This document shows positions 24,436 to 56,845 of a DNA stretch of 64,000 nucleotides, in pieces. The DNA is from Methylophilus medardicus (GTDB taxonomy: Bacteria; Pseudomonadota; Gammaproteobacteria; Burkholderiales; Methylophilaceae): contig NZ_CP040948.1 in NCBI RefSeq assembly GCF_006363955.1, positions 1,240,001-1,304,000 on the forward strand, in the 5' to 3' direction. Below the pieces are notes generated by a model. The model ran no database searches. It saw nothing but the letters and a program-made list of their open reading frames with translations, and was not told the origin of the DNA. Numbering within the stretch: the stretch's first letter is position 1; each line of letters begins with the position of its first letter. The position numbers and the translations under genes were made by a program.

Positions 24436-27057
24436 ATGTTTTCTACCATCGTGAATAAGTTGGCAGCCAGCACTCGGGAGTATCGCAATGTCTTGGATCA
24501 AGTGGCTGAATTTAGCGCCCTCAAATCCGAAATCAACAAAGCGCGTGCGATCGTCGAACTCAATGCCAAAGGGGATATTAGCCACGTCAATGACAACTTA
24601 TGTCGTTCGCTTGGCTATAGTGATAAAGAGCTGGTCGGACAACATCATCGTGCGTTGCTGACCCGTGCACAGTCTGCGAAACCGGAGTATGAACAGTTCT
24701 GGTCTGCACTACAGAGTGGAAAATCGCAAGTCGGTGCGTTTAACTTGTGCGATAAAGCCGGCCATGAGGTCTGGTTCCAAGGCTATTATGCGCCCGTCAT
24801 GAGCGGCGGCCAGTTGGTCAAAGTGGTTGCCTATCTGACGGATATCACCACCGATAAACAACGCAACCTCTCACTGCAAGAAGAAGAACAAGCGCTCAAT
24901 CAATCATTTGGTGTGATGGAATGCGACCTTCAAGGCCATATTCTTGAGTGCAATGACCTCTTTTTGAAACCGCTCGGATACAGCCAAAACGAAGTAGTGG
25001 GCAAACATATCTCCATGCTATTGAAGCCGAATACTGCGCAAAGCCCGGAATACAAAAAACTATGGGAAACTCTGAACAAAGGCCAGAATGCCAAGCTAGA
25101 AATTTGCCGTGTGGCAAAAAATGGCAGCGAATTCTGGTTTAGCACCAGTTATGTGCCGATTGTAGGCGCCGGCGGAGAAGTGGCAAAAGTCAAAGTTTAC
25201 TCTTACTGCATCACTGAAGAAAAACAAAAACAATTGAATTTTCAGGGGCAAGTCGAGGCCATTAACCAATCACAAGGCGTGGTCGAATTTGACGTCAGCG
25301 GCAATGTGCTCACTGCTAATCAAAACTTTCTGGCCTTAACCGGGTACAGCCTGAGCGAAGTGGTGGGTAAGCCACATAGCATGTTTGTCAGCGAGCGTTA
25401 CAAAGCCACTCAAGAATACAAAGATTTCTGGGCAAAATTACAGCGGGGCGAGGCCGATGTCGGCGTCTATCACCGCTATGGTAAACAAGGCCAAGATATC
25501 TATTTGCAAGCTTCCTACAATCCGATTATTGGTTTGGATGGTAAACCCGTAAGCGTAGTGAATTTTTCGACAGACATCACAAAAGCGGTATTGGCTGATC
25601 AAGCGCAAAAGGTTAAGGCCCGCGAAGCGACCATGATTAAAAATGCACTTGAAGCCTCATCAAATTGCTTAATGATGGCGGACAAAGACGGTATTATCAC
25701 TTATATGAACCCAGCCGCGCTGACACTGATGCGCGAATCCAGTAAAACATTCAGACAAATGTTCCCGCACTTCGACGCTGAAAACTTGGTCGGGCAAAAT
25801 TTTGATCTGTTCCACAAAAATCCATCGCACCAACGCAACTTGCTCGGGCATTTAACCGGCAAACACCAGACCGAACTGGGCGTTGGCGATATGTTTTTCC
25901 GCCTGACTGCCAACCCGATTTTTGACGTCAACGGAGATCGATTGGGTACCGTGGTTGAGTGGGTAGATTTGACACAAGAAAAACGCGTCGATAACCAAAT
26001 CAAAGAAGTATTGAAGCTGGCAGTAGATGGGGATATCACCTCGAGATTGGACACATCCACCGCGCATGGTGCAGCGGTTGAAACCATGAGCGCAATTAAT
26101 CAATTGCTCGACATCATGACCGATATTCTGGGCAATGTGCGTGAGGCTGGTGAAACCATCAATACCGCTGCGCAGGAGATCTCTAGCGGTAACAACGACT
26201 TGTCTAGCCGTACCGAACAGCAAGCGTCGAATTTGGAAGAAACTGCGTCCAGTATGGAGCAGTTGGCCTCAACCGTGAAACAAAACGCCGAAAATGCGCG
26301 TCAAGCTAACCAAATGGCTGAAGCAGCTTCACAAGTCGCCATTCGTGGCGGTACCGTGGTAGGTAATGTGGTCACCACCATGAGCGCCATTAATGACAGT
26401 GCCCGCAAAATTGAGGACATTATCTCAGTGATTGATGGCATTGCCTTCCAAACTAATATTTTGGCACTCAACGCGGCGGTTGAAGCTGCACGCGCTGGTG
26501 AGCAAGGCCGCGGCTTTGCAGTAGTGGCGGGTGAGGTGCGCAACCTGGCGCAACGTTCGGCCAGTGCTGCCAAAGAAATTAAAGAGCTGATTTCAGACTC
26601 TGTGAGCAAAACTACCGATGGAACCAAACTGGTGGAGAGTGCCGGCCAAACCATGCAAGAGTTGGTGACTTCGGTGCAGCGCGTGACCGATATCATGAGC
26701 GAGATTACAGCAGCGTCTGCCGAACAAAGCTCAGGCATCAATCAGGTTAACGATGCGGTCAATCATATGGATGAAGTCACCCAACAGAATGCCGCCTTGG
26801 TGGAAGAAGCCGCCGCAGCCGCAGAATCACTGGTGGAGCAAGCCGGTAATCTGATGGATACCGTCAATAGATTTACCATCCGCGATGGCGCGCATTCCTC
26901 ACGCAACACAGCGGTGCGTGCGCCGGTGGTGAGTCGTCCTACCAAACCTGCTGCAGCCATTAAACCAAAAGCGGTTACTCAGGCACCAGCCAATAGTTTC
27001 AAAGCGGCGCCTGCGGCCAAAACTGGCACCGATAACCAAGACTGGGAAGAGTTTTAG
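24436..27057 (+). CDS. Cytoplasmic multi-PAS chemoreceptor
   Basis: An 873-residue methyl-accepting protein with no membrane helix. Four PAS domains lie in tandem (about 36-138, 155-262, 275-385 and 395-515). The first three share the pattern VxEx(5)GxI...N...GY(S)x(E)xVGxxH and probably sense internal redox or ligand state, as in Aer-type receptors. A linker and the signalling domain follow (hairpin tip [29 protein letters not shown]). The protein ends NQDWEEF, a CheR-tethering tail. The signalling domain is clearly less similar to the later receptors than those are to each other. Confidence 0.92.
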
Positions 27058-27465: not shown

Positions 27466-28682
27466 AACAAATATCGCGCGCAAATGCAGGTGGTTGAAGG
27501 CTTTGGTGTGGGTAATTTTGATCTGCCACTGGCGCGCTGGCCAGGTAAAAAAGGTGAGATCAATACGACAACCGAACAAGTGCGTAGCAATCTTAAAGAA
27601 CTGATTACCGATGTGAATCAGTTAACCGAGGCGCGAATGAGGGGCGTATTACAGTGCGTGTGGATGCTGACAGACATCAGGGTGATTTCCGTAAGATCAT
27701 TGACGGTGTAAATCACACCCTCGATATCATCGTCGAGCCGATCATCGCAGTGACCGAGGCAGTGGAAACCATCACCACCGCGGCCAATGAGATTTCAAGT
27801 GGTAACGCAGACTTGTCTTCCCGCACCGAGCAACAAGCTTCTAGCCTCGAAGAAACCGCAGCCAGCATGGAAGAGTTAGCCTCAACCGTGAAACAAAACG
27901 CTGAAAACGCTAAACAGGCAAACCAACTGGCACTGACCGCCTCTGGTGTCGCAGTGAAGGGCGGCGAAGTGGTGAACGAAGTGGTCGCCACCATGAGTGC
28001 GATTAACGAAAGTGCGAAAAAGATTGAGGACATTATTTCGGTCATTGACGGCATTGCCTTCCAGACCAATATTCTGGCCTTGAACGCAGCGGTTGAAGCG
28101 GCGCGTGCTGGTGAACAAGGCCGTGGCTTTGCGGTGGTGGCGGGGGAAGTACGCAACTTAGCACAACGTTCAGCCAGTGCTGCTAAAGAGATTAAAGAAC
28201 TGATTACCGACTCTGTGAACAAAACTACCGAAGGCACCAAACTGGTTGAGAACGCAGGCAACACCATGGAAGAAGTGGTGTCATCGGTGCAGCGTGTGGC
28301 AGACATTATTAGTGAAATCTCGGCAGCGTCTAACGAGCAAACCACTGGCATTGATCAAGTGAACCAAGCCGTGACCAGCATGGATGAAACCACGCAACAA
28401 AACGCGGCACTGGCGGAGGAAGCAGCCGCGGCAGCGGAATCACTGGTCGATCAGGCCAACCAACTGGGTGCAGTGATTAGCCAATTTAAACTGGAAGGCC
28501 GTGCGAGTGTTGCCCACGCAGTGGGTGCCGGGAAGTCACGTGGAAACGCGAACAGTGGACGATCCACTGGTCGGGCGATCGCACCACCAGCTGGCCACTC
28601 AAATAAACCACAATCGACAAGCACGCCATTGAATCCCTCTGCCAAAACTGGCACCGATGACAGTGATTGGGCATCCTTTTAA
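27466..28682 (+). pseudogene. Truncated, frameshifted chemoreceptor
   Basis: The first part (27466-27630) encodes receptor linker sequence like its neighbours (VVEGFGVGNFDLPLARWPGKK and [10 protein letters not shown]) but starts right after stop codons, without sensor or membrane parts. Near 27630 one base is missing, so the frame changes; the continuing frame reads [20 protein letters not shown] and runs through an intact signalling domain to DDSDWASF at the end. A GTG at 27654 could start a 342-residue soluble receptor core. The signalling domain is nearly identical at DNA level to those at 30594 and 34240. A CheR tail is kept in altered form (DWASF). Confidence 0.75.
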
Positions 28683-28878: not shown

Positions 28879-31800
28879 ATGACTATTGCAAAACGGATGT
28901 ACCTCTTAATCGCCACGTGCGCCTTAGCATTGGTGATTTTGATTGGCGTCACTTTGAGTGAGATTATCAAGGTGTTTGAGACGACCAATCAGGCAAACGT
29001 GAATATCATCCCAAGTATTTTAGAGCTGTCAAAAGCGGAGAATTATTATCAACGCTTGCGTCTCAACGTGCTGCGTCACGTGAATGCAACCACGCCTGCT
29101 GAAAAGGAAAAGCTAAGCGGTCAAATTCAAGAACGCAAAGCGGTGGTAGACGAGGCAATTAAAAAATACGAAGCGTTGATTGTCGATAGTCAAGATCGAG
29201 CCATGCTGAATGCCGAAAAAATCATGTTCAATCAGTACTTTGAGCAAATGGCCAATGTCATCCGTTTATCGGACGCAGGTGCCCCAGAAGCCGCGCTCAC
29301 ATTAAAAGAAGTCGATAAATTGGCAATCCAAATTACGGACAAACTCGATGAACACATGGTGTTTAATCAGAACACTGGCTTAGCCATGGCAGAGCATGCT
29401 GCTAGTATTAAGACGAGTGCGGTTTGGCAGTCTGCCATCATTGCTTTGTTGTGTTTAGGCGCCATCATCACCCTGGGCATGATGATCACCAAACGCTTGC
29501 GTGCGCAATTAGGCGTTGAGCCTGACGAATTGAGTCAGATTGCCCGCAATCTGGTTGAGGGCAATTTGAACCAGAAAATCACCTTAGCGGCGAATGATAA
29601 AACCAGTGTAGCCTCTTCAATCGTTAGCCTGCAACGCACCCTGGATGGGTTGGTTCAATCACTTAACTACGTCAGCCAACAGCACGATGAAGGCGATATT
29701 GACTGCACGGTAGACCAAACCCGCTTTAAGGGTGGTTATGCTGAGATGGCAGCCGGCATCAACAAGATGGTGGCGGGTCACATTGCCATGAACCGAAGTG
29801 CCATTGAAGTGGTAAAAGCGTTTGGTGAAGGCAATCTTAATGTGCCTTTAGAGCAGTTTCCAGGCAAAAAAGCATTTGTGAATCAGGCGATTGAGCAGGT
29901 CAGAACCAATATTAAAGCATTGGTCAGTGATGTGAATGCATTGGCGCATGGCGCTGTCAGTGGCAATTTGTCAGCGCGCGCCGATGCGAGCAAATACCAT
30001 GGCGATTTCAGTTTGATTGTACAGGGCATGAATAACACACTGGATGCGTTGATCACGCCATTGAATTTGACGGCGCGTTATATTGACGATATTGCTAAAG
30101 GTGACATCCCAGCCAAAATCACCAATGAATACCAAGGTGATTTCAATACCATTAAAAACAATTTAAACCAGTGTATAGACGCGATTAACGCACTCATTTC
30201 AGAAATGAATCACATGAGCTCAGAGCACGATATCGGTGAGATTGATGTGCGGATTGATACCAGCAAATTCCAAGGTGCCTACCAAGTGATGGCGATTGGC
30301 GTGAATGACATGGTGGCTGAACATATCAATACCAAGAAAAAAGCGATCGCTTGCGTGAGCAGCCTGGGCGAGGGGGATTTTGACGCGCCGTTAGAAAGCT
30401 TCCCACGCAAAAAAGCCTTTATTAATGTGTCGATTGAGCACATTCGTCAAAACCTGAAAGCGTTGAACGAAGATACTTTAATGCTTGCAGAAGCCTCTAA
30501 AGAAGGGCGTATTACCGTGCGCGCTGACGCAGCGCGCCATCCGGGCGGTTTCCGCGACATTATTCAAGGCTTTAACGATACGCTGGATCTGATCGTCGAG
30601 CCGATCATCGCCGTGACCGAAGCGGTGGAAACCATCACCACCGCGGCCAATGAGATTTCAAGTGGTAACTCAGACTTGTCAGCCCGTACCGAGCAACAAG
30701 CCTCTAGCCTCGAAGAAACCGCAGCCAGCATGGAAGAGTTAGCCTCAACCGTGAAACAAAACGCTGAAAACGCTAAACAGGCAAACCAACTGGCACTGAC
30801 CGCCTCTGGTGTCGCAGTGAAGGGCGGCGAAGTGGTGAACGAAGTGGTCGCCACCATGAGTGCGATTAACGAAAGTGCGAAAAAGATTGAGGACATTATT
30901 TCGGTCATTGACGGCATTGCCTTCCAGACCAATATTCTGGCCTTGAACGCTGCGGTTGAAGCGGCGCGTGCCGGTGAACAAGGCCGTGGCTTTGCGGTGG
31001 TGGCGGGTGAAGTACGCAACCTGGCACAACGTTCCGCCAGTGCTGCCAAAGAGATTAAAGAGCTGATTACCGACTCTGTGAACAAAACCACCGAAGGCAC
31101 CAAACTGGTTGAAAACGCAGGCAACACCATGGAAGAAGTGGTGTCATCGGTGCAGCGTGTGGCAGACATCATCAGTGAAATCTCAGCAGCGTCTAACGAG
31201 CAAACCACTGGCATTGATCAAGTGAACCAAGCCGTGACCAGCATGGATGAAACCACGCAACAAAACGCCGCGTTAGTCGAAGAAGCAGCCGCGGCAGCGG
31301 AATCGCTGGTCGATCAGGCCAACCAGCTGGGGGCAGTCATTAGTCAATTCAAGCTTGAAGGGCGCGGTCATCAACCGGTGAATAGAGGCAATCGAGCTAC
31401 ACACACGACCACATTCAGAACCGAGTCAAATGTTGGTCAAAGAAGTACGGAGGCCCCGTCAAAAAAGTTCTCTTTGGATGATGCAAATGCGGCACATGCC
31501 AAATGGAAAACGCGCTTGATTGATTATATGAACGGTCGTGAGCGTGAGCCGATTAATCCAGTCGAGGCCGCAAGTGATCATAAATGCGAGTTAGGGCAGT
31601 GGATTTATGGCGAGGGTAAACAGCAACATGGACACCGTAAAGAGTACCGCGAGTTGAAAGAGGCGCATGCACATTTTCACCAAAGTGTGGGTGAGATTGT
31701 GAGCTGCGTTGCCCAACGCAAGATCGATAAAGCGAAATTTTTATTAGGCGGGGATTTTGCCAGAAAATCTAAACAGACCCATGCCGCGATTGATCAATTA

Positions 31801-31914
31801 TCTCGTTTGATTGCAGGGAGTGGTCATGGACATTCACCGCCGCTCGTTCGGCCGGCTATGTCTGGGGCATTTAAAAAAACAGGCACGGATGACGGTGATT
31901 GGGAAACGTTTTGA
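28879..31914 (+). CDS. Membrane chemoreceptor with HAMP array and C-terminal zinc-binding CZB domain
   Basis: A 1011-residue receptor. A membrane helix (about 7-29), a periplasmic helical domain (about 30-180) and a second helix (about 183-205) lead into repeated HAMP-type modules ([12 protein letters not shown] and [16 protein letters not shown] types) over about 215-570. The signalling core follows, ending near residue 828. After it (about 865-980) is a CZB domain, with a conserved Cys in [13 protein letters not shown], histidines in AHAHFHQ and an upstream AAHAKWK. In this family three His and one Cys bind zinc. The tail DDGDWETF is a CheR-tethering pentapeptide. The ligand is unknown; zinc or oxidants such as hypochlorite are known for CZB receptors. 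Confidence 0.93.
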
Positions 31915-32518: not shown

Positions 32519-35230
32519 ATGACCGTTGCTAAAAGAATATATATTCTGATTGCCGTAGCAGCTGCAGGCTTGTTCCTGCTAGCCGGCATCAGCTATTTTC
32601 AAACTGAACGTGTATTTAAATACACTAACTTTGGAAACGAAATGGCTGCCCCAAGTATCGAGGTGCTTGATGACTCACTGCGTGAGTTTGAGAAGCTGAA
32701 TAGCTTGATCTGGCAGCACATGCTCAATACCGATAACGCCAAAATGCAGGTGATCGAAAAAGAAGTGGCCGAAACGCATGGCAAATTGATGGCCGCGTTA
32801 AAGCGCTACGACAATTACATCAGTGATTCTGAAGACAAGCAGTTTTTGGATAAGGATTATGCTGCCATTAAGGCCTACGATGTGTTGGGTAGCAATACTT
32901 TAACGCTCTCCCTCTCAAACAAAAAAACCGAGGCGAGAGACGCGTTGTTGGCAAACCAAGCGGTGATTGAGGGCGTACAAAACGCCATCCGCGAGCACCG
33001 TGTGTTTAATAACAAATTGGCCAAAGACAGTGCGAGCCAGGCAGCCAGTGTTAAACAAACCGCATTATTTATGTTGATCGGTATTGCGCTCACTGCATTG
33101 GCGTTTGTTGTGTCCATCGGCATCTACATCAAACGTAATATATTCAAGCAACTAGGCATGGAGCCTGCAGATTTAACACAGATTGCGCGTAACTTTGCCG
33201 AAGGCAATTTAAATCAGAAGATTGTGTTGCCTGAAGACGACAAGTCGAGCGCAGCTTACTCGATCCGCGTATTGCAACGCACGCTAGATGGGTTGGTGCA
33301 ATCGCTCAATTACGTGAGCCAGCAACATGACGAAGGCGATATTGACTGTACGGTGGACCAAACCCGCTTTAAGGGTGGCTATGCTGAGATGGCAGCCGGC
33401 ATCAATAAAATGGTCGCAGGCCACATTGCGATGAACCGCAGCGCCATTGAAGTGGTAAAAGCGTTTGGTGAAGGTAATCTGGATTTACCGCTGGAGCAGT
33501 TCCCAGGTAAAAAAGCATTTGTGAATGAAGCGATTGAGCAAGTGCGTGGCAATATTAAACGACTGGTCAACGATGCGGATGCCTTGGCACATGCAGCGGT
33601 AGAAGGTAATTTGTCTACTCGCGCAGATGCCAGCCAGCACCAAGGCGACTTTAGAGCGATTGTGCAAGGCATGAACGGCACCTTGGACGCGGTAGTGAAA
33701 CCCCTAAACGTGACCTCCAACTATCTGGATAATATCGCCAAAGGCATTATTCCAAGCACCATTCAAGAGCAATATCCTGGTGATTACAGCTTGATCATCA
33801 ACAACTTAAACACCTGTATCGCTGCGGTGAACGCACTGGTAGCAGATGCAAACAAACTGGCCCAAGCAGCACAAAACGGCCAATTATCGACCCGCGCAGA
33901 TACCGCGCTGCACAACGGCGATTTCCGTAAGGTGATCGAAGGCTTGAATGGCACGTTAGAAGCCGTGGTGAAACCATTAACCGTGACCTCTGAAACGTTG
34001 GATCAGATTGCCAAAGGCCAGATTCCAGACACGATTTCTGAATACTACCCTGGTGATTACAGCGAGATCATCAACAACCTGAACACCAGCATTGCAGCGG
34101 TAAATGCGTTGGTGGCGGATACCAGCATGCTGGCAGAAGCCTCTAAAGAAGGTCGAATTACCGTGCGGGCCGATGTCGATAAACACAATGGTGATTTCCG
34201 TAAGATTATCGAAGGCGTAAACAACACGCTGGACATGATCGTCGAGCCGATCATCGCAGTGACCGAGGCAGTGGAAACCATCACCACCGCGGCCAATGAG
34301 ATTTCAAGTGGTAACTCAGACTTGTCTGCCCGTACCGAGCAACAAGCCTCTAGCCTCGAAGAAACCGCAGCCAGCATGGAAGAGTTAGCCTCTACCGTGA
34401 AACAAAACGCTGAGAACGCTAAACAGGCAAACCAACTGGCACTGACCGCCTCTGGCGTGGCAGTGAAGGGCGGTGAAGTGGTCAATGAAGTGGTCGCCAC
34501 CATGAGTGCGATTAACGAAAGCGCGAAAAAGATTGAGGACATTATTTCGGTCATTGACGGCATTGCCTTCCAGACCAATATTTTGGCCTTGAACGCAGCG
34601 GTTGAAGCGGCGCGTGCCGGTGAGCAAGGCCGTGGCTTTGCGGTGGTGGCGGGGGAAGTACGCAACTTAGCACAACGTTCCGCCAGTGCTGCTAAAGAGA
34701 TTAAAGAACTGATTACCGACTCTGTGAACAAAACCACCGAAGGCACCAAACTGGTTGAAAACGCAGGCAACACCATGGAAGAAGTGGTGTCATCGGTGCA
34801 GCGTGTGGCAGACATCATCAGTGAAATCTCAGCAGCGTCTAACGAGCAAACCACTGGCATTGATCAAGTGAACCAAGCCGTGACCAGTATGGATGAAACC
34901 ACGCAGCAAAACGCCGCATTGGTGGAAGAAGCCGCCGCGGCAGCTGAATCGCTGGTCGATCAGGCCAACCAACTGGCAGAGGTGATTAGTCAGTTTAAAC
35001 TGGAGGGTCGTGTGGGCGGTGGCTTTAGCCAAGCAAAACAGAGCACCAGCTTTAAAAGCCATACGAGTCACACGCCATCTGCCAGCCGCGGAAACACGCA
35101 AACGAGTCGTCCGACAGGGCGCCCAGTAGCACCGCCAGCGGGTTATGTAGATAAACCACAATCCTCACCAAGTGCCACCAAGGTATCAGCCAAAACGGGC
35201 ACCGATGATAGTGATTGGGAAGAGTTTTAA
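32519..35230 (+). CDS. Membrane chemoreceptor with HAMP array
   Basis: A 903-residue receptor with membrane helices at about 6-27 and 184-207 flanking a periplasmic helical sensor. Repeated HAMP-type modules follow ([48 protein letters not shown]) to about 570. The signalling core and a Ser/Thr-rich linker lead to the CheR tail DDSDWEEF. Its HAMP modules at 33280-33480 and core are close copies of those in the CZB receptor, but the periplasmic domain is not, so the sensed compound differs. A terminator follows. Confidence 0.93.
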
Positions 35231-35250
35231 CAAGGGGGTTAAAACCACTG

Positions 35251-35282
35251 AACCGGCTGCTGATGCAGCCGGTTTTTTTTCG
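35251..35282 (+). terminator. Intrinsic terminator after the 903-residue receptor
   Basis: AACCGGCTGC (35251-35260), loop TGAT, GCAGCCGGTT (35265-35274), then eight T residues. It has the same design as the terminators at 28701 and 31935. Confidence 0.92.
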
Positions 35283-35495: not shown

Positions 35496-38111
35496 ATGTC
35501 CTCGCTACCGTTGAGTGCATGGACGGGAAAATTATCCCGCATGAAACTGACATCGCAGTTAGGGTTGATGCTGACTATCCTCAGTGCTGGCATCATTGCC
35601 ACCAGTTATCTGGATAACATCAGTGACCGTGAAGTGGCTATCAATGGTGCGCATTATCAGCAAATCATCAATCACAAAGATTTGATTGCGGATATTTTAC
35701 CGCCGCCTGAGTATCTGATCGAATCTTGGTTGACCGTGCTTGAGATGGTCTCATTAAATAATCAGTCCTTGCAAACCTTGATCGACAAAGGCAACACGCT
35801 GCAAGCTGACTTTGAGCAGCGTCATGTTTATTGGCAAAAGCAATTACCTGAATCCCCCTTAAAAACCAGCACAGTAGGCCCATTGTTTGACACTGGCGTT
35901 GCGTTTTTTAAAGTGCGTGATCAAGAGGTCATTCCAGCGATCCGCAGCGGTGATAAAAAGCAGATAGACCAAGCACTGGATCACTTACAAGTCGCCTATC
36001 AAAAACATAGAGCCGCCGTCGATACAGTGGTGAAACAAGCGAGTGAAGGCGCTGCTCGTATTGAACAAGAGACACCCGTATTGATCAACCGCAACGACTG
36101 GCTGAACTATGGCTTGAATATCGGCTTGATCCTATTGACGGCCGTTGTTGGCACATTACTCATCTCGACCATCAGACGGAATGTCGGTGGTGAAACTTAT
36201 CAAGCGCTAGATGCGGCAAAAGGCATCGCCCAAGGTGACTTTAACGGTACTGCCATGGCAGATCGCATGGGTGAATCGAATGTGATTCATGCATTAAATC
36301 AGGCAAAAGCTACCCTGAAAGCCCTAGATGCGCAAATGGCTCACGTGGAAGCGGAGCATGCCAAGGGCAATATCAAAGCGGTGATTGATGTGAGCCAATT
36401 CAGTGGTGAATATCGCAATATGGCGCAAGACATCAATCGTATGCTGGCGATGCATGTTGAAATTTTGCATAAAACCAGTGCCTCTTTGCATTTGCTGGGG
36501 CAAGGGGATTTTAGTGTGCAGCTGGATCCGTTGCCAGGGGATTTAGGCATCCTCAATGCGAGCTTCGATAACCTGAAAAACAACGTCAAAACGCTGCTTT
36601 CTGATTTGTCACACATGGCCGCAGCGCATGCACAGGGCGAAAGTGATGTGAAACTGAATATCGACCAACTGGATGGTGACTTTAAAGAGGTTGGCCAAGG
36701 GGTCAATGATATGGTTCAAGCCTATGTCAACGACACGGATCAGTTTATCGCGGTGATGGATAACATCGGTCGTGGTGACTTGACCGCACAATTACAAGCC
36801 ATGCCAGGCCACAAAGCGGCGATGAACAAGAGTGTTGATCGCATCCGTGGCAATCTGAAGGGTATTGTCGACTCTGTGAATTGGGTGAACGACGAGCACG
36901 AAAAAGGCAATATCGACATGACCTTGCGTGCAGACATGTTTAAAGGTCAGTTTTCCGTGCTGGCTTCAAGTATTAATCAGATTGTTGCAGGGCATATTAG
37001 CCTAAACCAAAAAGCCATGGCCTGTGTGCAAGCTTTTGGTGACGGCAATTTTGATGCGCCGCTGGAGCAGTTTCCTGGTCAAAAAGCCCAAATCAACCAA
37101 ACGATTGAACAGGTACGCGCCAACCTGAAAGCATTGAATGCTGACGCGCAGATGTTAGCTGAAGCGGCCCGTGAAGGTAGGGTGACAGTGCGTGCCAATG
37201 CCGCGCAACATCCCGGCGACTACCGCAAAATTGTTGAAGGCATGAACCAGACGCTCGACATGATTGTGGAGCCAGTATTAACCGTGAAGGCAGCGGCAGA
37301 ATCCATCAACATCGCCGCCAAAGAAATTGCGCAAGGCAATGCTGACCTCAGCCGTCGCACAGAAGATCAGGCCGCAAACCTTGAGAAAACCGCTTCTAGC
37401 ATGGAAGAACTGGCATCCACCGTGAAACAAAACGCCGAAAACGCGAAACAAGCCAATCATCTTGCCGCGCAGGCATCCACCGTCGCGGTCAAAGGGGGCG
37501 ATGTGGTCAATGCGGTGGTGACGACCATGAGCGACATTAACGAGAGTGCGCACAAAATTGAAGACATTATCACGGTCATCGACAGCATCGCTTTCCAGAC
37601 CAATATTCTGGCACTAAACGCCGCGGTTGAAGCCGCCAGAGCAGGCGAGCAAGGTCGAGGTTTCGCTGTGGTGGCCAATGAGGTAGGCAATTTGGCACAA
37701 CGTTCATCGGTGGCTGCACGTGAAATCAAAGAATTAATTACCGACTCTGTCAACAAAACGGCAGAAGGTAGCCGTCAAGTCGAGCAAGCGGGCAACACCA
37801 TGCACGAGATTGTAGATTCGGTGAAACGGGTCAGCGTCATCATCAGTGAAATCGCGTCTGCTTCAAACGAGCAAAGCGCGGGCATTGCCATGGTCAATGA
37901 CGCAGTGATTCGCATGGATGATGTGACGCAGCAGAACACAGCGTTAGTGGAGCAAGCCGCCGCTGCTGCAGAGTCACTGATGGACCACGCCAATGAGCTG
38001 GCAACGGCAGTAAGCGTATTTATTGTGGAGGGACAGGCAACAAACCAGTCTCGCCATCAAGTAGGAAATGCAGGCTGGAACGATGAATATCGTCAGGTCA
38101 GCAACGGTTAG
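35496..38111 (+). CDS. Membrane chemoreceptor lacking a CheR tail
   Basis: An 871-residue receptor with membrane helices at about 22-41 and 206-229, a periplasmic sensor between them and several HAMP-type modules (about 245-590). The signalling core (about 600-845) has [37 protein letters not shown]. The core is more diverged than in the three near-identical copies. It ends [11 protein letters not shown], without the DWExF tail of the others, so it would rely on neighbours for CheR recruitment. The ribosome site is AAGGAG. It is directly upstream of fae. Confidence 0.92.
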
Positions 38112-38131
38112 GGCAGCGGAATGATTGCCCT
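38110..38131 (+). terminator. Weak hairpin between the last receptor and fae
   Basis: AGGGCA (38110-38115) pairs with TGCCCT (38126-38131) across ten bases, followed by TTAATT rather than a T-run. It overlaps the receptor stop codon. It is probably only partly terminating, which would leave fae in the same transcript. Confidence 0.3.
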
Positions 38132-38168
38132 TTAATTAAGTAGTACTTTTTTATCAGGAGTAATGAAA

Positions 38169-38876
38169 ATGGCAGTGATTGATCGAGTATTAATTGGTGA
38201 AGGTTTGGTAATCGAAGATCGCCCAGAGGGTGGCTTGGATTTGAAAAATGTGGCACACATTGACTTAGTGATGGGCCCACGCGGTAGCGCTGCAGAAGAC
38301 GCATTTTGTCGTACGCTCACCGACCAAAAACAAGGCGTTAACGGTTTATTGGCGATTGCAGCGCCAAACCTGATGGTCAAACCAAACACAGTGATGTTTA
38401 ACAAAGTGACCATCAAAGACGGTCGTCAAGCCACACAAATGTTTGGCCCAGCACAACGTGGCGTGGCCATGGCAGTGATGGATTGCGTTGCAGACGGCAC
38501 GATTCCATTGGAAGAAGCAGATGACGTATTTATTTGCGTGGGCGTGTTTATTGACAGCAAAGCCGACATGGATGACCGTATTCAGGACTGGAACTATCGC
38601 GCAACTAAAATGGCGATTAAATCTGCAGTGAACCGCGAACCTAAGGCGGCTGACGTAGTGAAACAATACAAACAAGCCTTGCATCCATTTGCTGCACAAA
38701 CCCCTGAAGCGCAGAATCGTCGTGCAGATGATCAAGCGGCTGCATTAGCGATCTCACAAATGCAAGAGCGTAGCAAATATGCACGCACCAGCGCTGAAGC
38801 CAAAGCCAAAGAAGAAAAGCAGATTGAATTGGCTATTTCTCAAATGAAAGACCGTATCGGCACCACCAAGGCATAA
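38169..38876 (+). CDS. fae: Formaldehyde-activating enzyme (Fae) homologue with a charged C-terminal extension
   Basis: Fae catalyses condensation of formaldehyde with tetrahydromethanopterin, the first step of formaldehyde oxidation in methylotrophs. The hallmark [12 protein letters not shown] (with His30, equivalent to catalytic His22 in M. extorquens) is present, as are [37 protein letters not shown] and [13 protein letters not shown]. The typical Fae ends near residue 170; here about 60 more residues follow, rich in Lys/Glu/Ala, with two copies of LAISQM[QK][ED]R. I chose the ATG at 38169 because AGGAG lies 8 bases before it; the ATG at 38163 leaves only 2 bases. It lies between a chemoreceptor and cheR, in one likely transcript. 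Whether it is catalytic or sensory is unknown. Confidence 0.9.
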
Positions 38877-38919: not shown

Positions 38920-39819
38920 GTGAATGCACTCAAAAAACAAGAACAGGAAGAGCGCGAGTTTTTGTTTACGCGCGATGATTTTGTCAGAATTAAAAGTCTG
39001 ATTTATCGCCATGCAGGCATTTCATTATCCGATGCAAAGACCGATATGGTGTACAGCAGGATCGGCAGGCGTTTACGCGCTCTGGATATGCTTAGTTTTA
39101 AGCAGTATCTGGATACGCTAGAAAATCGTAATCAACCGGAGGAGTGGCAGGCGTTTACGAATGCACTGACCACGAATCTAACCTCATTTTTTCGGGAAGA
39201 ACATCACTTTCCGATATTGGCAGAGCATTTAAGCAAACTGGCTGCTCGCAAACCAGCAAAACCGATCCGTATTTGGTGTTCAGCGGCATCCACCGGCGAA
39301 GAACCTTATTCGATCGCAATGACTGCCTGCGAGGCCTTTAATTCACTCAAACCACCCGTGGAAATCATCGCTACAGACATTGATACCAATGTGCTGGCGA
39401 CAGCCGCGGCAGGGGTTTATCCTTTGGATCGAGTGAAGAAAATGGACGACGGCAGGGTGCGTAAGTTTTTTGAACGCGGCACTGGGAAACATGATGGATT
39501 GGTCCGCGTTAAGAAAGCCGTTCGTGAGTTGATTCATTTTCATCAACTCAATTTGCTGGATACACAATGGCCGTTTCATGATGGCTTTGATGTCATTTTT
39601 TGTCGCAATGTCATGATCTATTTTGACAAGCCGACACAAGGCAAAATTATCGAGAAATTTGTGACCTTGATGCACGAAGACAGCTTGTTGCTGGCCGGAC
39701 ATTCAGAAAACTTTTTGTATGTGTCTGACCACCTGCAATTGCTGGGGAAAACCGTTTATAAATTAAAAACCAGTGGCGCGGCACGTTCCAGCCTATTTAC
39801 GCATCGGAAACCGTCATGA
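38920..39819 (+). CDS. cheR: CheR, receptor glutamate methyltransferase
   Basis: CheR adds methyl groups from SAM to receptor glutamates. The N-terminal helical domain (about 10-80) is followed by a methyltransferase fold with RIWCSAASTGEEPYSIAMT, the family motif around the SAM site, and DVIFCRNVMIYFDKP. It starts at GTG 38920 with AGGA 7 bases before it. It overlaps cheD by 4 bases (ATGA). The DWExF receptor tails in this window are its expected docking sites. Confidence 0.96.
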   Translation: MNALKKQEQEEREFLFTRDDFVRIKSLIYRHAGISLSDAKTDMVYSRIGRRLRALDMLSFKQYLDTLENRNQPEEWQAFTNALTTNLTSFFREEHHFPILAEHLSKLAARKPAKPIRIWCSAASTGEEPYSIAMTACEAFNSLKPPVEIIATDIDTNVLATAAAGVYPLDRVKKMDDGRVRKFFERGTGKHDGLVRVKKAVRELIHFHQLNLLDTQWPFHDGFDVIFCRNVMIYFDKPTQGKIIEKFVTLMHEDSLLLAGHSENFLYVSDHLQLLGKTVYKLKTSGAARSSLFTHRKPS

Positions 39820-40424
39820 GTGTTATGCAAGAAGAAATTTCAACCACCCTGTATTTTGACAGAACGTTTAACACGAACGCCGCCAAAATATCGCCAGGGG
39901 AGTATTACTACACCGACAAAGACATGCTCATTGTCACCGTGCTTGGTTCCTGTGTGTCGGCGTGTATTCGCGACAGCCGGACTGGCATTGGCGGCATGAA
40001 TCACTTTATGCTACCGGATGGGGCAGCCGCGGATAAAGATAGTCCGGTGTCTGAGTCAATGCGTTATGGCACCTATGCCATGGAAGTGTTGATTAACCAA
40101 TTGTTACGTAATGGGGCCAAGCGGGAAAACCTTGAGGCCAAGATTTTTGGTGGCGGCAACGTCTTACGTAGCTTTACCACCAACAACGTCGGTGATCGAA
40201 ATGCCTCCTTCGTCAAAAAATATCTCAAAGAAGAGGGCATCAAAGTGACAGGCGAAGACCTGCTGGATATTTATCCACGCAAAGTCTATTTTTTTCCTAA
40301 GACCGGTAAGGTCTTGGTTAAAAAGCTGAAACAACTGAACAACTACACATTGGTCAAACGCGAGCAAGCATACTCCAGCAAGTTGCAGACAAACGATGTG
40401 GGTGGGGATATCGATTTGTTTTAA
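39816..40424 (+). CDS. cheD: CheD, receptor glutamine deamidase
   Basis: CheD converts selected receptor glutamines to glutamates and in some bacteria cooperates with CheC/CheY. The catalytic Cys46 (VLGSCVSACIRD) and His63 (GGMNHFMLP) are present in the 202-residue protein. Its C-terminus is GGDIDLF; the last six residues are shared with the CheZ-like protein at 20411. Translation is coupled to cheR. Confidence 0.95.
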   Translation: MSVMQEEISTTLYFDRTFNTNAAKISPGEYYYTDKDMLIVTVLGSCVSACIRDSRTGIGGMNHFMLPDGAAADKDSPVSESMRYGTYAMEVLINQLLRNGAKRENLEAKIFGGGNVLRSFTTNNVGDRNASFVKKYLKEEGIKVTGEDLLDIYPRKVYFFPKTGKVLVKKLKQLNNYTLVKREQAYSSKLQTNDVGGDIDLF

Positions 40425-40449: not shown

Positions 40450-41520
40450 ATGAAAACAAAAGTACTCGTGATTGATGACTCGGCACTTATACGTAGTTTG
40501 CTGAGTGAAATTATCAATGACACCAAAGATCTGGAAGTGGTGGGGACCGCGCCTGATCCTTTGGTGGCGCGGGAAATGATCAAACAATTGAATCCAGATG
40601 TGTTGACGCTTGACGTCGAGATGCCACGCATGGATGGTTTGGATTTTCTGGAAAAACTGATGCGCTTGCGTCCGATGCCAGTGCTGATGGTGTCTACGCT
40701 GACCGAAAAAGGCTCTGAGATTACCTTGCGAGCTTTGGAGCTTGGTGCCACCGATTTTGTCACCAAACCTAAGATGGGCATCGCGCAGGGCATGCAACAG
40801 TATGCCGATGAAATCACCGATAAAATTCGCACAGCTTCACGGGCAAAAGTCAGTACCTTGCAAAGCATCGCCAAGGCCTCAAACACCCAAGTGCAACAAA
40901 GCGCCATTCGCAACCCCTTAATCAGTAGTGAAAAGTTATTGATTATTGGTGCGTCTACTGGCGGCACCGAGGCCATTAAGTCGGTGTTGATGCAAATGCC
41001 ATCGGATTGTCCGGGCATTTTAATCACCCAACATATGCCGGCAGGCTTTACCAAATCCTTTGCCGAGCGCCTCAACACCTTGTGCAAAATCGCAGTGAAA
41101 GAGGCCGTAGATGGTGAACGTGTGTTACCAGGCCACGCCTACATTGCCCCAGGCGATCAGCATTTATTGCTAGGCAGAAGTGGGGCAAACTATGTGACAA
41201 AACTGTCCGATAGCGAACCTGTGAACAGACACAAACCCTCAGTGGATGTATTGTTTGACTCAGCAGCCACTCATGCGGGTAAGAATGCGGTTGGTATTAT
41301 CTTGACCGGGATGGGCAAGGATGGTGCGGCAGGTATGCTGCGCATGAAAAATGCCGGTGCTTATAATTTTGCGCAAAATGAAGAGAGCTGTGTCGTCTAT
41401 GGCATGCCGCGCGAGGCAGTCGCGCACGGCGGCGTCCATGAGGTAGGGCATCTTAAAGACCTACCGCGCATGGTGCTGCATTATTTAGCTACTAACAGTG
41501 ATCGAGCCCTGCGTGTATAG
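40450..41520 (+). CDS. cheB: CheB, receptor methylesterase response regulator
   Basis: CheB removes receptor methyl groups when phosphorylated by CheA. The receiver domain has Asp9/Asp10 and the phosphoacceptor Asp55 ([12 protein letters not shown]). The esterase domain has the nucleophile Ser169 ([11 protein letters not shown]), a catalytic His in [10 protein letters not shown] and Asp in [12 protein letters not shown]. The 356-residue length is typical. AAGGATA lies before the ATG. A large hairpin follows before cheY. Confidence 0.96.
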
Positions 41521-41631: not shown

Positions 41632-42030
41632 ATGGGCAACCCTAATACTAAATTTCTAGTCGTGGACGACTTTTCCACCATGCGAAGAATCGTGCGTAAC
41701 CTGCTCAAAGAGTTGGGTTACAACAATGTGGAAGAGGCTGAAGACGGCGCAGATGCGTTAAATAAGCTACGTAATGGTGATTTTGAGTTTGTGGTCTCAG
41801 ACTGGAATATGCCCAACATGGATGGATTAACCATGTTGCAAAATATTCGGGCAGATAACAAGCTGTCAAAACTGCCGGTGTTAATGGTCACCGCAGAAGC
41901 AAAAAAAGAAAACATTATTGCCGCGGCGCAAGCCAAAGCCAACGGGTATGTGGTTAAGCCATTTACGGCGGCCACCTTAGAAGAAAAACTATCCAAAATC
42001 TTTGAAAAATTGGAAAAAGGCGAGGTGTAA
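41632..42030 (+). CDS. cheY: CheY, motor-binding response regulator
   Basis: A canonical 132-residue CheY with [16 protein letters not shown], phosphoacceptor Asp57 ([11 protein letters not shown]), Thr in VTAEAKK and Lys in YVVKPF. These match enterobacterial CheY, which binds FliM to change rotation direction. Directly followed by cheZ (2 bases), so signal and its removal are co-made. It is a different subtype from the CheY at 20997. Confidence 0.95.
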
Positions 42031-42032
42031 TC

Positions 42033-42713
42033 ATGACCGAAGCTGTCAATCCGAATCAGGCCAACATTGTGGTGGATATTGCTTCCACCATGATGCAAGA
42101 TCTGAACGGAAACCAACAGGAAGAAATGATCAGCCGTATCGGCCATATGACACGCTCGCTGCATGATAGCTTGAGTGGCTTGGGTTATGACAAAGTGCTT
42201 GAGCAAGTGGCGCAAGAAATTCCAGATGCGCGAGACCGTTTGAGCTATGTCGCTAAAATGACCGAGCAAGCCGCCGAGCGTGTTTTGAATGCAACGGACC
42301 AGGCCACCCCATTACAAAGCGAATTGGCAGATCGTGCAGCGTCACTAAAGCTACGTTGGGAAGAGGTGATGCAACGTGCCGCACTTAAATCAGAGTACGA
42401 TGCCGTCGTCCATGAAACATTGGCTTATCTATCATCCGTCAATGAGCACACCGGCACGACCAAGTCGCTATTGATGGACATTATGATGGCGCAGGACTTT
42501 CAAGATTTGACCGGCCAAGTGATTAAAAAAGTCACTAATTTGGCGCAAGACCTTGAGCGCCAACTGGTTCAAGTGTTGGTGGATTTTGCACCGCAGGTGA
42601 AAAAAGATGAAGAGTCGCTGCTCAATGGACCGCAGATCGATCCACATAACACGGTGGATGTGGTGGCAAACCAAGAGCAGGTGGATGACTTGCTCGACAG
42701 CCTCGGCTTTTAG
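42033..42713 (+). CDS. cheZ: CheZ, CheY-phosphate phosphatase
   Basis: The 226-residue phosphatase has the long helical hairpin and the catalytic segment MMAQDFQDLTGQVIKKV, where Asp and Gln, four apart, position the attacking water. The C-terminal CheY-docking helix EQVDDLLDSLGF is intact. The partner is the CheY just upstream. A bidirectional terminator follows. Confidence 0.96.
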   Translation: MTEAVNPNQANIVVDIASTMMQDLNGNQQEEMISRIGHMTRSLHDSLSGLGYDKVLEQVAQEIPDARDRLSYVAKMTEQAAERVLNATDQATPLQSELADRAASLKLRWEEVMQRAALKSEYDAVVHETLAYLSSVNEHTGTTKSLLMDIMMAQDFQDLTGQVIKKVTNLAQDLERQLVQVLVDFAPQVKKDEESLLNGPQIDPHNTVDVVANQEQVDDLLDSLGF

Positions 42714-42730
42714 CGCATATTATTTTTTAA

Positions 42731-42756
42731 AAAAGGCATCCATGGATGCCTTTTTA
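42731..42756. terminator. Bidirectional terminator between cheZ and the DUF779 gene
   Basis: AAAAAGGCATCC faces GGATGCCTTTTT, with T-runs on both strands. It ends cheYZ on the plus strand and the DUF779 gene on the minus strand. Confidence 0.9.
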
Positions 42757-54852: not shown

Positions 54853-56646
54853 TCAATGCTGCGGCGTTAATTTAAATGTCAAAATCCGGTCGCCTTGTTT
54901 AAAGCCAAATAAGGAATTTCCACCGCTGGCAACGGCAATATATTGCTCACCATTGACTTGATAGGTGATTGGCGGCGCGTTGACCCCAAACTCAGATGTG
55001 TATTGCCACAACGATTTGCCAGTTTGGCTATCATAGGCAGCAAACTTGCCATCGCCCTCACCACAAAATAACAGGCCTCCTGCGGTGGCTAACACCCCGC
55101 CCACCAACGGTTGGCTGGTTTTGTGTTGCCATGCAATGTGGCCAGATTGCAAGTCAATGGCGCTTAATAAGCCCCAGCGTGCATCATCGGTGGGTTCACT
55201 GGCGGCATAACGAATCGGTTTATCGCCAGGTTTGACCTCGGTCTCATGCACCGTATATTTGATCGGGCTATGAATGGCCGCGACGTAGACACGTTGTTGT
55301 TGTTCATCAAGACTGACTGGCGACCAGTTGGCGCCGCCAAGGATACCCGGATAAATGACGGTGCCCTCGGCACTGGGCTTTTTGAATAAATTGCGTTGCG
55401 GCACAAAAGGGTCCGATTTGGCAAGAAATTGCCCAGTCAAGCGGTCATGAATATAAAACCACCCTGCTTTGCTGGCTTGGCCTACCGCAGCAATGGTTTT
55501 GCCTTGATGTTGATAATTAAACAAGACAGGCGGGCTGGCGAGATCATAACCCCACAAGTCATGCGGCACTTGTTGGTAATGCCATTTGTATTTGCCGGTT
55601 TCGGTATCTAATGCCACCAATGAAACCGTGTAGAGATTGTCACCCGGCCTTGAAACATCGTTCATTTGCGGGGAGGGATTACCTGTGCCGAAATAGAGCG
55701 TGTGTGTGGCTGCATCAATTGCTGGCGTGCTCCAAGCCGACCCACCGCCAAATCGAGCGGAATCTGGAAAGTCTTTCATGGCGGCTTTTTCAGCGGCTAC
55801 ATCGCGCTCAAACTGGCTGCCATCCGCCGTTTTTGTAGTGAACTGCCCTTCCCAGCCTTGCTTAGGAATGGTATCGAATTGCCACACTTGATGGCCATCT
55901 TTGACATCAAATGCCGCTAAAAAGCCAGGGCGTCCATAGCGTCCGGTGACACCAATCACGGCGCCGAGCGGCGCATCACTACGCGGATTATCAATATGCA
56001 GCCCATAACCCACGCCAGTGATGCCAATAATGACTTTATGTTTGTAGACCACCGGAGCCATCGCAATGCCTACACCGGTGCCGCCTGTCACTTTGCGGGT
56101 TTTATTCGGGTCATTACCGCTCAGGGTGTCTTGATGTTCGGTATTGACTTGTTGACCTGCAACGTCGATGTCCCATACTTTTTGTCCCGATTTTGCATCT
56201 AGGGCAACCAGTCGAGCATCCACAGTGCCCATAAATACTCTGCCCTCAGCCACGGCAACACCACGATTGGCCGGGCCACAACACATCGGCCAGTCGGCTT
56301 TGCGAACATGCGTATACTTCCATAATTGTTTGCCTGTGCGCGCGTCGAGTGCAATCACATGGTTGAACGGCAGGCTGATGTACATGATGCCGTCGACTAC
56401 AATCGGCGTCGCTTGAAAAGTCGCTTTCACACCAGTATCCACTGACCAAGCCGGCTGCAACTGTGCGACAGTGTTGCGATTAATCTGCGACAAACCTGAA
56501 AACCGTTGTGCTTCTGGGCTTAATCCATAGCTCGGCCAGTCGGTAAGCTTTGCCGCCGGGGCTTCAGACTTAGGCAACTGTGCACATGCCACTAATAAGC
56601 TACAGGTGGCAACGGAAATAACAGAATTTAAAAAATAATTTGACAT
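54853..56646 (-). CDS. PQQ-type beta-propeller lipoprotein (quinoprotein dehydrogenase-like)
   Basis: The 597-residue protein carries a lipoprotein signal (ATCSLLVAC then AQLPK), so it should be membrane-anchored in the periplasm. The beta-propeller shows W-motif repeats (GTVDARLVALDAKSGQKVWD), the adjacent cysteines of PQQ alcohol dehydrogenases (WPMCCGPANRG) and AWSTPAID...GTGNPSP, where Asn binds the metal. In the catalytic region it reads PHDLWGYDLASPP: the place of the usual catalytic Asp in HDxWD is Gly, while the next Asp is kept. It may be an unusual dehydrogenase subfamily or an altered propeller. No cytochrome c domain is present. A GTG 45 bases upstream is a possible but less likely start. 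Confidence 0.78.
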   Translation of the reverse strand: MSNYFLNSVISVATCSLLVACAQLPKSEAPAAKLTDWPSYGLSPEAQRFSGLSQINRNTVAQLQPAWSVDTGVKATFQATPIVVDGIMYISLPFNHVIALDARTGKQLWKYTHVRKADWPMCCGPANRGVAVAEGRVFMGTVDARLVALDAKSGQKVWDIDVAGQQVNTEHQDTLSGNDPNKTRKVTGGTGVGIAMAPVVYKHKVIIGITGVGYGLHIDNPRSDAPLGAVIGVTGRYGRPGFLAAFDVKDGHQVWQFDTIPKQGWEGQFTTKTADGSQFERDVAAEKAAMKDFPDSARFGGGSAWSTPAIDAATHTLYFGTGNPSPQMNDVSRPGDNLYTVSLVALDTETGKYKWHYQQVPHDLWGYDLASPPVLFNYQHQGKTIAAVGQASKAGWFYIHDRLTGQFLAKSDPFVPQRNLFKKPSAEGTVIYPGILGGANWSPVSLDEQQQRVYVAAIHSPIKYTVHETEVKPGDKPIRYAASEPTDDARWGLLSAIDLQSGHIAWQHKTSQPLVGGVLATAGGLLFCGEGDGKFAAYDSQTGKSLWQYTSEFGVNAPPITYQVNGEQYIAVASGGNSLFGFKQGDRILTFKLTPQH

Positions 56647-56845
56647 GTTTTTTAAACAAAATATGAAATGACTATACAGGTTAGTATACACCTAAATGCA
56701 GGCGCGCAAAGTGCTGGATGACATGCTGCCGCTTTATCTATTAAGCTGCGCAAATGCAAGTGCATAAATATTTTTTTTAATGAAACTAAACTAAGCGGTG
56801 AATAGACATATACTGCAATAATAATTAATCGCAGCAATAACCATC

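Follow-up and report, generated by a model that had tools for sequence, protein, structure and literature searches.

The fae locus

In the 64-kb stretch of Methylophilus medardicus DNA analysed here, referred to as a whole as the window, a gene of the formaldehyde-activating enzyme (Fae) family lies between a chemoreceptor (MCP) gene and cheR-cheD-cheB. This arrangement, proposed in a preliminary description, is borne out by Pfam, NCBIfam and PDB matches and by the flanking genes. The features of the locus are as follows.

35250..35275, + strand: strong terminator-like hairpin 5′ of the last MCP gene (pattern scan; 11 pairs and a T run)
35496..38111, + strand: MCP gene directly 5′ of fae (PF00015, E 8.8e-52; C-terminus YRQVSNG)
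38109..38130, + strand: small stem-loop AGGGCA...TGCCCT, from the MCP stop codon towards fae, kept in Methylophilus (gap alignment)
38163..38876, + strand: fae, Fae family, 237 aa (ORF call, Pfam, NCBIfam, PDB, conserved residues)
38697..38873, + strand: C-terminal tail of Fae past HPFAA, aa 179-237, with RRADD and two AISQM[QK]xR copies (sequence comparison)
38920..39819, + strand: cheR (PF01739, E 3.8e-56)
39816..40424, + strand: cheD (PF03975, E 6.7e-34)
40450..41520, + strand: cheB (PF01339, E 3.4e-66)
41632..42030, + strand: cheY-like response regulator gene (PF00072, E 3.1e-31)
42033..42713, + strand: cheZ (PF04344, E 1e-76)
42730..42755, + strand: strong terminator-like hairpin 3′ of cheZ (pattern scan)

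The fae product is numbered here from 38163; the ATG at 38169, from which the preliminary description started, is an alternative in-frame start. The protein matches the Pfam family Fae (PF08714, aa 11-176, E 2e-62; 210 bits against a cut-off of 27), NCBIfam TIGR03126 (200 bits against a cut-off of 118) and the Methylobacterium extorquens Fae structure 1y5y (phmmer, aa 26-179, E 3.1e-58). Fae is its sole Pfam domain, and no MCP, CheW, response-regulator, CheR, CheB, CheD or CheZ domain was found in it. All conserved Fae positions are intact in the alignment, and the VAHID histidine (H32) does not vary among the 41 sequences aligned; we take it to be the catalytic histidine of the preliminary description, His22 of M. 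extorquens Fae. Fae enzymes are homopentamers; the core of the predicted single-chain model, itself poor (mean pLDDT 65.5, with residues 54-87 below 50), matches PDB Fae (Foldseek E 6e-15). The closest named isolates belong to Methylophilus, with 88-96% identity. Family, core and VAHID histidine are thus common to the window protein and M. extorquens AM1 Fae (1y5y, 1y60), but the AM1 chain ends just past HPFAA, at 168-169 residues, whereas the window protein carries a 59-residue tail and is encoded in a che operon.

The two strong hairpins probably form the upstream and downstream borders of a transcription unit, and the pattern scan found only weaker terminator-like sites between them; since such hairpins are consensus matches only (13 sites against 10.1 expected), they serve as hints. 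Because they flank the MCP start and the cheZ end, they suggest that MCP-fae-cheR-cheD-cheB-cheY-cheZ forms one unit of seven genes. The preliminary description had read co-transcription from gaps of 57 bases (MCP gene to the ATG at 38169) and 43 bases (fae to cheR). Both gaps are as described, and together with the flanking terminators they favor co-transcription. The stem-loop that follows the MCP stop codon speaks against simple co-transcription, and in other genomes fae and cheR lie up to 354 bases apart. On the sequence evidence, MCP-fae-cheR co-transcription is likely here. Across 15 Methylophilus MCP-fae gaps (16 were extracted and L079 was excluded), 92% of the stem-loop cells are paired, with modest covariation: 8 of 500 shuffles reached the score, and 101 of 500 reached the number of pairs changed on both sides. 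The sequence AGTAGTACTTTTT (window 38139-38151), just 5′ of the fae ribosome-binding site, is largely kept in the same 15 gaps and has one exact match in the 64-kb window. It is possibly a promoter or regulatory element.

Conservation of the fae-cheR order

We surveyed 150 Methylophilaceae genomes for Fae (match at 1e-50) and cheR (above 260 bits). The window Fae is matched in 84 genomes and cheR in 67, with weak cheR matches only in 2 further genomes. In 42 of the 67 cheR genomes, which represent several genera, fae lies directly 5′ of cheR on the same strand at a distance of 36-354 bases. All 22 genomes sampled from the window's genus are among them, together with 20 from elsewhere in the family. 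The arrangement is found in Methylophilus and in many Methylotenera, and the recurrence of the order indicates that the placement of fae before cheR is not due to chance. The gene 5′ of fae matches MCP in 34 of the 42 loci and gives no MCP hit in 8, four of which (L090, L091, L094 and L097) read by eye as argininosuccinate synthase.

Among the 25 cheR genomes that lack fae at the che locus, a Fae match is found elsewhere in 23 and none at 1e-50 in 2 (G022 and G041). Nineteen of these 25 loci were retrieved, one of them (L266) uninformative at a contig end. An MCP gene directly precedes cheR in 14 of the 18 informative loci (L249, L261, L262 and L263 differ), which counts for an insertion of fae between MCP and cheR. 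Outside the family, fae was found beside che genes in none of 54 order- and phylum-wide loci with flanks of up to about 1.5 kb. These loci come from searches that found Fae in 37 of 300 order genomes and 23 of 398 phylum genomes; at least three of them are Methylophilaceae (L298, L313 and L320), L318 lacks a genuine Fae, and no loci were taken for Fae copies of lower rank.

According to the preliminary description, a formaldehyde- or H4MPT-responsive taxis input would newly link C1 metabolism and motility, but both the fae-che synteny and the idea of Fae signalling are already in print. According to the available text of PMC3728764 (PeerJ 2013), mmol_1253 belongs to a sensing/chemotaxis cluster (after Lapidus 2011), Fae is a possible sensor or signal (a 2008 proposal repeated there), and in M. 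mobilis transcription of the che-cluster fae is far below that of the second copy. The available text of PMC4109929 (PLoS One 2014) likewise places one fae inside a conserved chemotaxis cluster, reports fae2 and fae3 types beside one fae in M. methylotrophus, and locates the fae genes of Methylovorus and Methylobacillus inside H4MPT clusters. Going by these excerpts, the chemotaxis-cluster fae of Methylotenera and Methylophilus (mmol_1253 and relatives) is the same gene as the window fae, and neither excerpt mentions a C-terminal tail. The fae-che link goes unmentioned in the available portions of PMC8399692, PMC6794327 and PMC8153426. In contrast to the che-locus gene, the non-che Fae of Methylovorus and other Methylophilaceae, about 79-84% identical to the window Fae domain, is encoded away from cheR and ends in HPFQAK or HPFAAK in nearly all cases.

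Probable enzymatic role of the che-locus Fae

Three genes of the Fae family, the window fae included, are present in the window genome, a single contig of 2.60 Mb. The two others fall short of 1e-50 against the window Fae but exceed the TIGR03126 cut-off of 118 with 128 and 140 bits, so they may have Fae activity as well. By our own assignment they are consistent with the fae2 and fae3 types as given in the available text of PMC4109929. The genome also encodes the H4MPT-pathway enzyme Mch (C1:1345429, E 3.8e-126), about 66 kb from fae. Mch is present in 41 of the 42 che-fae genomes, the exception being G145, whose genome is 80% complete. A second Fae match at 1e-50 is absent from 29 of the 42 and present in 13, where the second copies are 56-64% identical (72% in G136). 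The Fae domain evolves under a dN/dS of 0.019 (66 pairs, 12 Methylophilus). Because 29 of 42 genomes have no second match at 1e-50 and 41 of 42 have Mch, the main job of the window Fae is most likely normal formaldehyde condensation; as the only close Fae of its own genome, it does not resemble a redundant copy released for signalling.

Four genomes of one genus (G127, G134, G143 and G148; genus code g7) have Mch but no window-Fae match at 1e-50, along with no cheR match. They apparently run the H4MPT pathway without a true Fae, which indicates that some relatives can do without true Fae; the available text of PMC4109929 reports the same for another strain. Some che-fae genomes also have another type of Fae (L153, L154 and L155, from G078, G036 and G115), which is about 57-59% identical and not che-adjacent. 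By our own assignment it probably corresponds to the novel subtype in PMC3728764. The L153 protein ends in FDLRRRA.

A locus-linked C-terminal tail

Fae proteins encoded outside che loci nearly always extend no more than a few residues past HPFAA or HPFQAK. At che loci, by contrast, the protein goes on with RRxxD in all 42 sampled che-fae genes, and 31 of them have A[LI]x[QE]M[KRQ]xR-like repeats as well, in one copy or two (none in 11). When the named loci are added to the sample, the RRxxD tail is present in 48 of 49 che-locus Fae versus 3 of 59 others. The che-locus exception (L182) is tailless and lies on a short MAG contig. The tails outside confirmed che loci are those of L132 (G008), an RRAED tail with Mch about 2 kb away, L112 and L186. 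None of the 44 readable order- and phylum-wide Fae ends has the tail, all stopping at most 5 residues past HPF (10 of the 54 were unread).

For the same 66 pairs as above, the tail has a dN/dS of 0.122, which places it under purifying selection, though less tight than that on the domain; with differing pair sets the values are 0.018 for the domain and 0.129 for the tail. Tail length is constant in 14 Methylophilus. In the predicted model, residues 186-236 form one helix (pLDDT about 71-80 over 191-230); lone helices are often over-predicted in structure models. It is the selected, locus-linked tail that is the new part here, the placement of fae being already published. The literature searched, seen in part, does not mention the tail, and an earlier mention is possible in Lapidus 2011 or Kalyuzhnaya 2008.

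We searched for the tail elsewhere. In the proteins of its own genome only the Fae tail itself was found, and a degenerate DNA pattern for the repeat, which does not cover AGR arginine codons, has two genome matches, both in fae. With tblastn against the retrieved loci, the matches listed (39 of 103 outside annotated fae) are without exception this Fae again, in duplicate loci. By eye, the ends of CheR, CheD, CheB, CheY and CheZ show no striking difference between loci with and without fae, and no convincing remnants of a longer tail lie past the stop codon in short-tailed Methylotenera. CheR/CheD methylation sites were also considered for the tail and rejected: judged by eye against the consensus, the motifs are not conserved.

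Phylogeny of the che-locus Fae

A tree of 108 Fae domains, with the tail excluded, was built by a quick search with SH-aLRT support and no bootstrap. It contains the family sample, minus fae2/fae3, the about 60%-identical L151-L155 copies and one fragment, and takes in 13 of 80 named-isolate loci. A single clade of 54 rows (SH-aLRT 97) takes in every one of the 49 che-locus Fae. The other five rows are L112 (G122), L186, G006, G140 and L201. The contig of L186 stops just after fae. G006, G140 and L201 are tailless Fae outside che loci, and G006 and G140 retain Fae with no cheR match. The window cheR finds no match at 1e-40 in G122, where Fae is retained with an RRRATDK tail, a 79-aa MCP remnant adjoins fae, and another CheR-type cluster lies on the opposite strand. 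One relocation of the true fae followed by later losses would be the simplest account of the tree.

The association between tail and locus comes down to few events, with 1 independent pair on the starred branches and 3 on all, too few for power. With about one origin of tail and locus, their correlation alone is no proof of coupling to chemotaxis, and shared ancestry would account for it as well as a docking function would.

Origin and function of fae in the chemotaxis operon

We consider it fairly probable that the window protein is a true catalytic Fae that moved once into the che operon, keeps a mainly metabolic role, and has a tail that probably binds something. The move would have happened a single time, in an ancestor of the Methylophilus-Methylotenera group, and would have put fae between the MCP gene and cheR. 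To judge from family, residues and genome content, the enzyme would condense formaldehyde with tetrahydromethanopterin for H4MPT oxidation, while its position would probably tie fae expression partly to that of the motility genes. As a selected element, the tail probably binds a partner, one possibility being a Che protein or a receptor. The retention of Fae in G122, G006 and G140, where the window cheR has no match, counts for a metabolic main role. A plain metabolic reading faces the tail, whose conservation points to selection beyond plain catalysis, as well as the low transcription of the M. mobilis che copy (in the available text of PMC3728764), the paralogues that pass the Fae cut-off, and the Fae-less relatives.

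Alternatively, a housekeeping fae may have ended up in the che operon by chance, with a promoter of its own and a tolerated, function-poor tail. Such neutral hitch-hiking is possible, if not what we expect. It would agree with the single origin on the tree, the variable tail length, the different upstream gene in several Methylotenera, the hairpin between MCP and fae, and the fae-cheR gaps of up to 354 bases. Nevertheless, the gene order has held in 42 sampled genomes of several genera, the RRxxD core is kept in all 42 sampled che-locus genes, and the tail is constrained (dN/dS 0.12) with unchanged length in 14 Methylophilus.

The tail could also be a docking element that holds Fae at the chemosensory array, or at CheR/CheD/CheB, so that the flux of formaldehyde or methylene-H4MPT is reported to taxis. 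We regard this as unlikely, although the tail at che loci is an unexpected hint of coupling between Fae and chemotaxis. Its near-restriction to che-locus Fae (48 of 49 versus 3 of 59), its absence from the 44 readable ends of order- and phylum-wide loci, its dN/dS of 0.12, the three tailless non-che Fae inside the che-locus clade and the place of fae immediately 5′ of cheR in 42 of the 67 genomes would all fit. However, tail and locus represent about one event, and 25 of the 67 cheR genomes have no fae there. L182 is tailless at a che locus, G122 has the tail without the window cheR, and L132 has it beside Mch. Moreover, in the available text of PMC10613068, a fae1 fae2 hgd mutant of Methylobacterium aquaticum 22A retains methanol and formaldehyde taxis, so formaldehyde taxis there is independent of Fae. 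The MtpA protein of that strain ties formaldehyde to taxis, as the link proposed for the window would, but it is an MCP and not a Fae, and it belongs to another lineage. The specific mechanism, in which the tail tethers Fae to the array or to CheR/CheD/CheB, formaldehyde is captured at the array, and occupancy or product tunes receptor adaptation, is in our view quite doubtful. It is highly improbable that the protein has given up Fae catalysis for a dedicated role in taxis. Only the placement of fae and the tail would speak for this. Against it stand the conserved Fae positions, every one of them kept, the lack of another close Fae in 29 of the 42 che-fae genomes, the presence of Mch in 41 of the 42, and the retention of Fae in G122 with no match to the window cheR.

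Methanol metabolism may thus be linked to swimming. Steering by methanol or formaldehyde is known for few methylotrophs. If loss of the tail altered taxis, a core metabolic enzyme would be wired into chemotaxis, and under docking a central C1 enzyme would be a direct taxis input; if taxis were unaltered, the gene order would have been preserved by history.

Other features of the window

The other four MCPs in the window (24436-27057, 27654-28682, 28879-31914 and 32519-35230) end in DWEEF, DWASF, DWETF and DWEEF, respectively. We take this W..F pentapeptide to be of the CheR-tether type. It is missing from the MCP at 35496-38111, which ends in YRQVSNG, and from 29 of the upstream MCPs in the 34 che-fae loci (present in 5). 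In G022 (L257), a VSNG-ended MCP precedes cheR and there is no fae. About 12 kb past cheZ, at 54853-56691 on the minus strand, lies a gene for a PQQ alcohol dehydrogenase-like protein (PF01011, E 3.5e-99), which could be a candidate methanol dehydrogenase.
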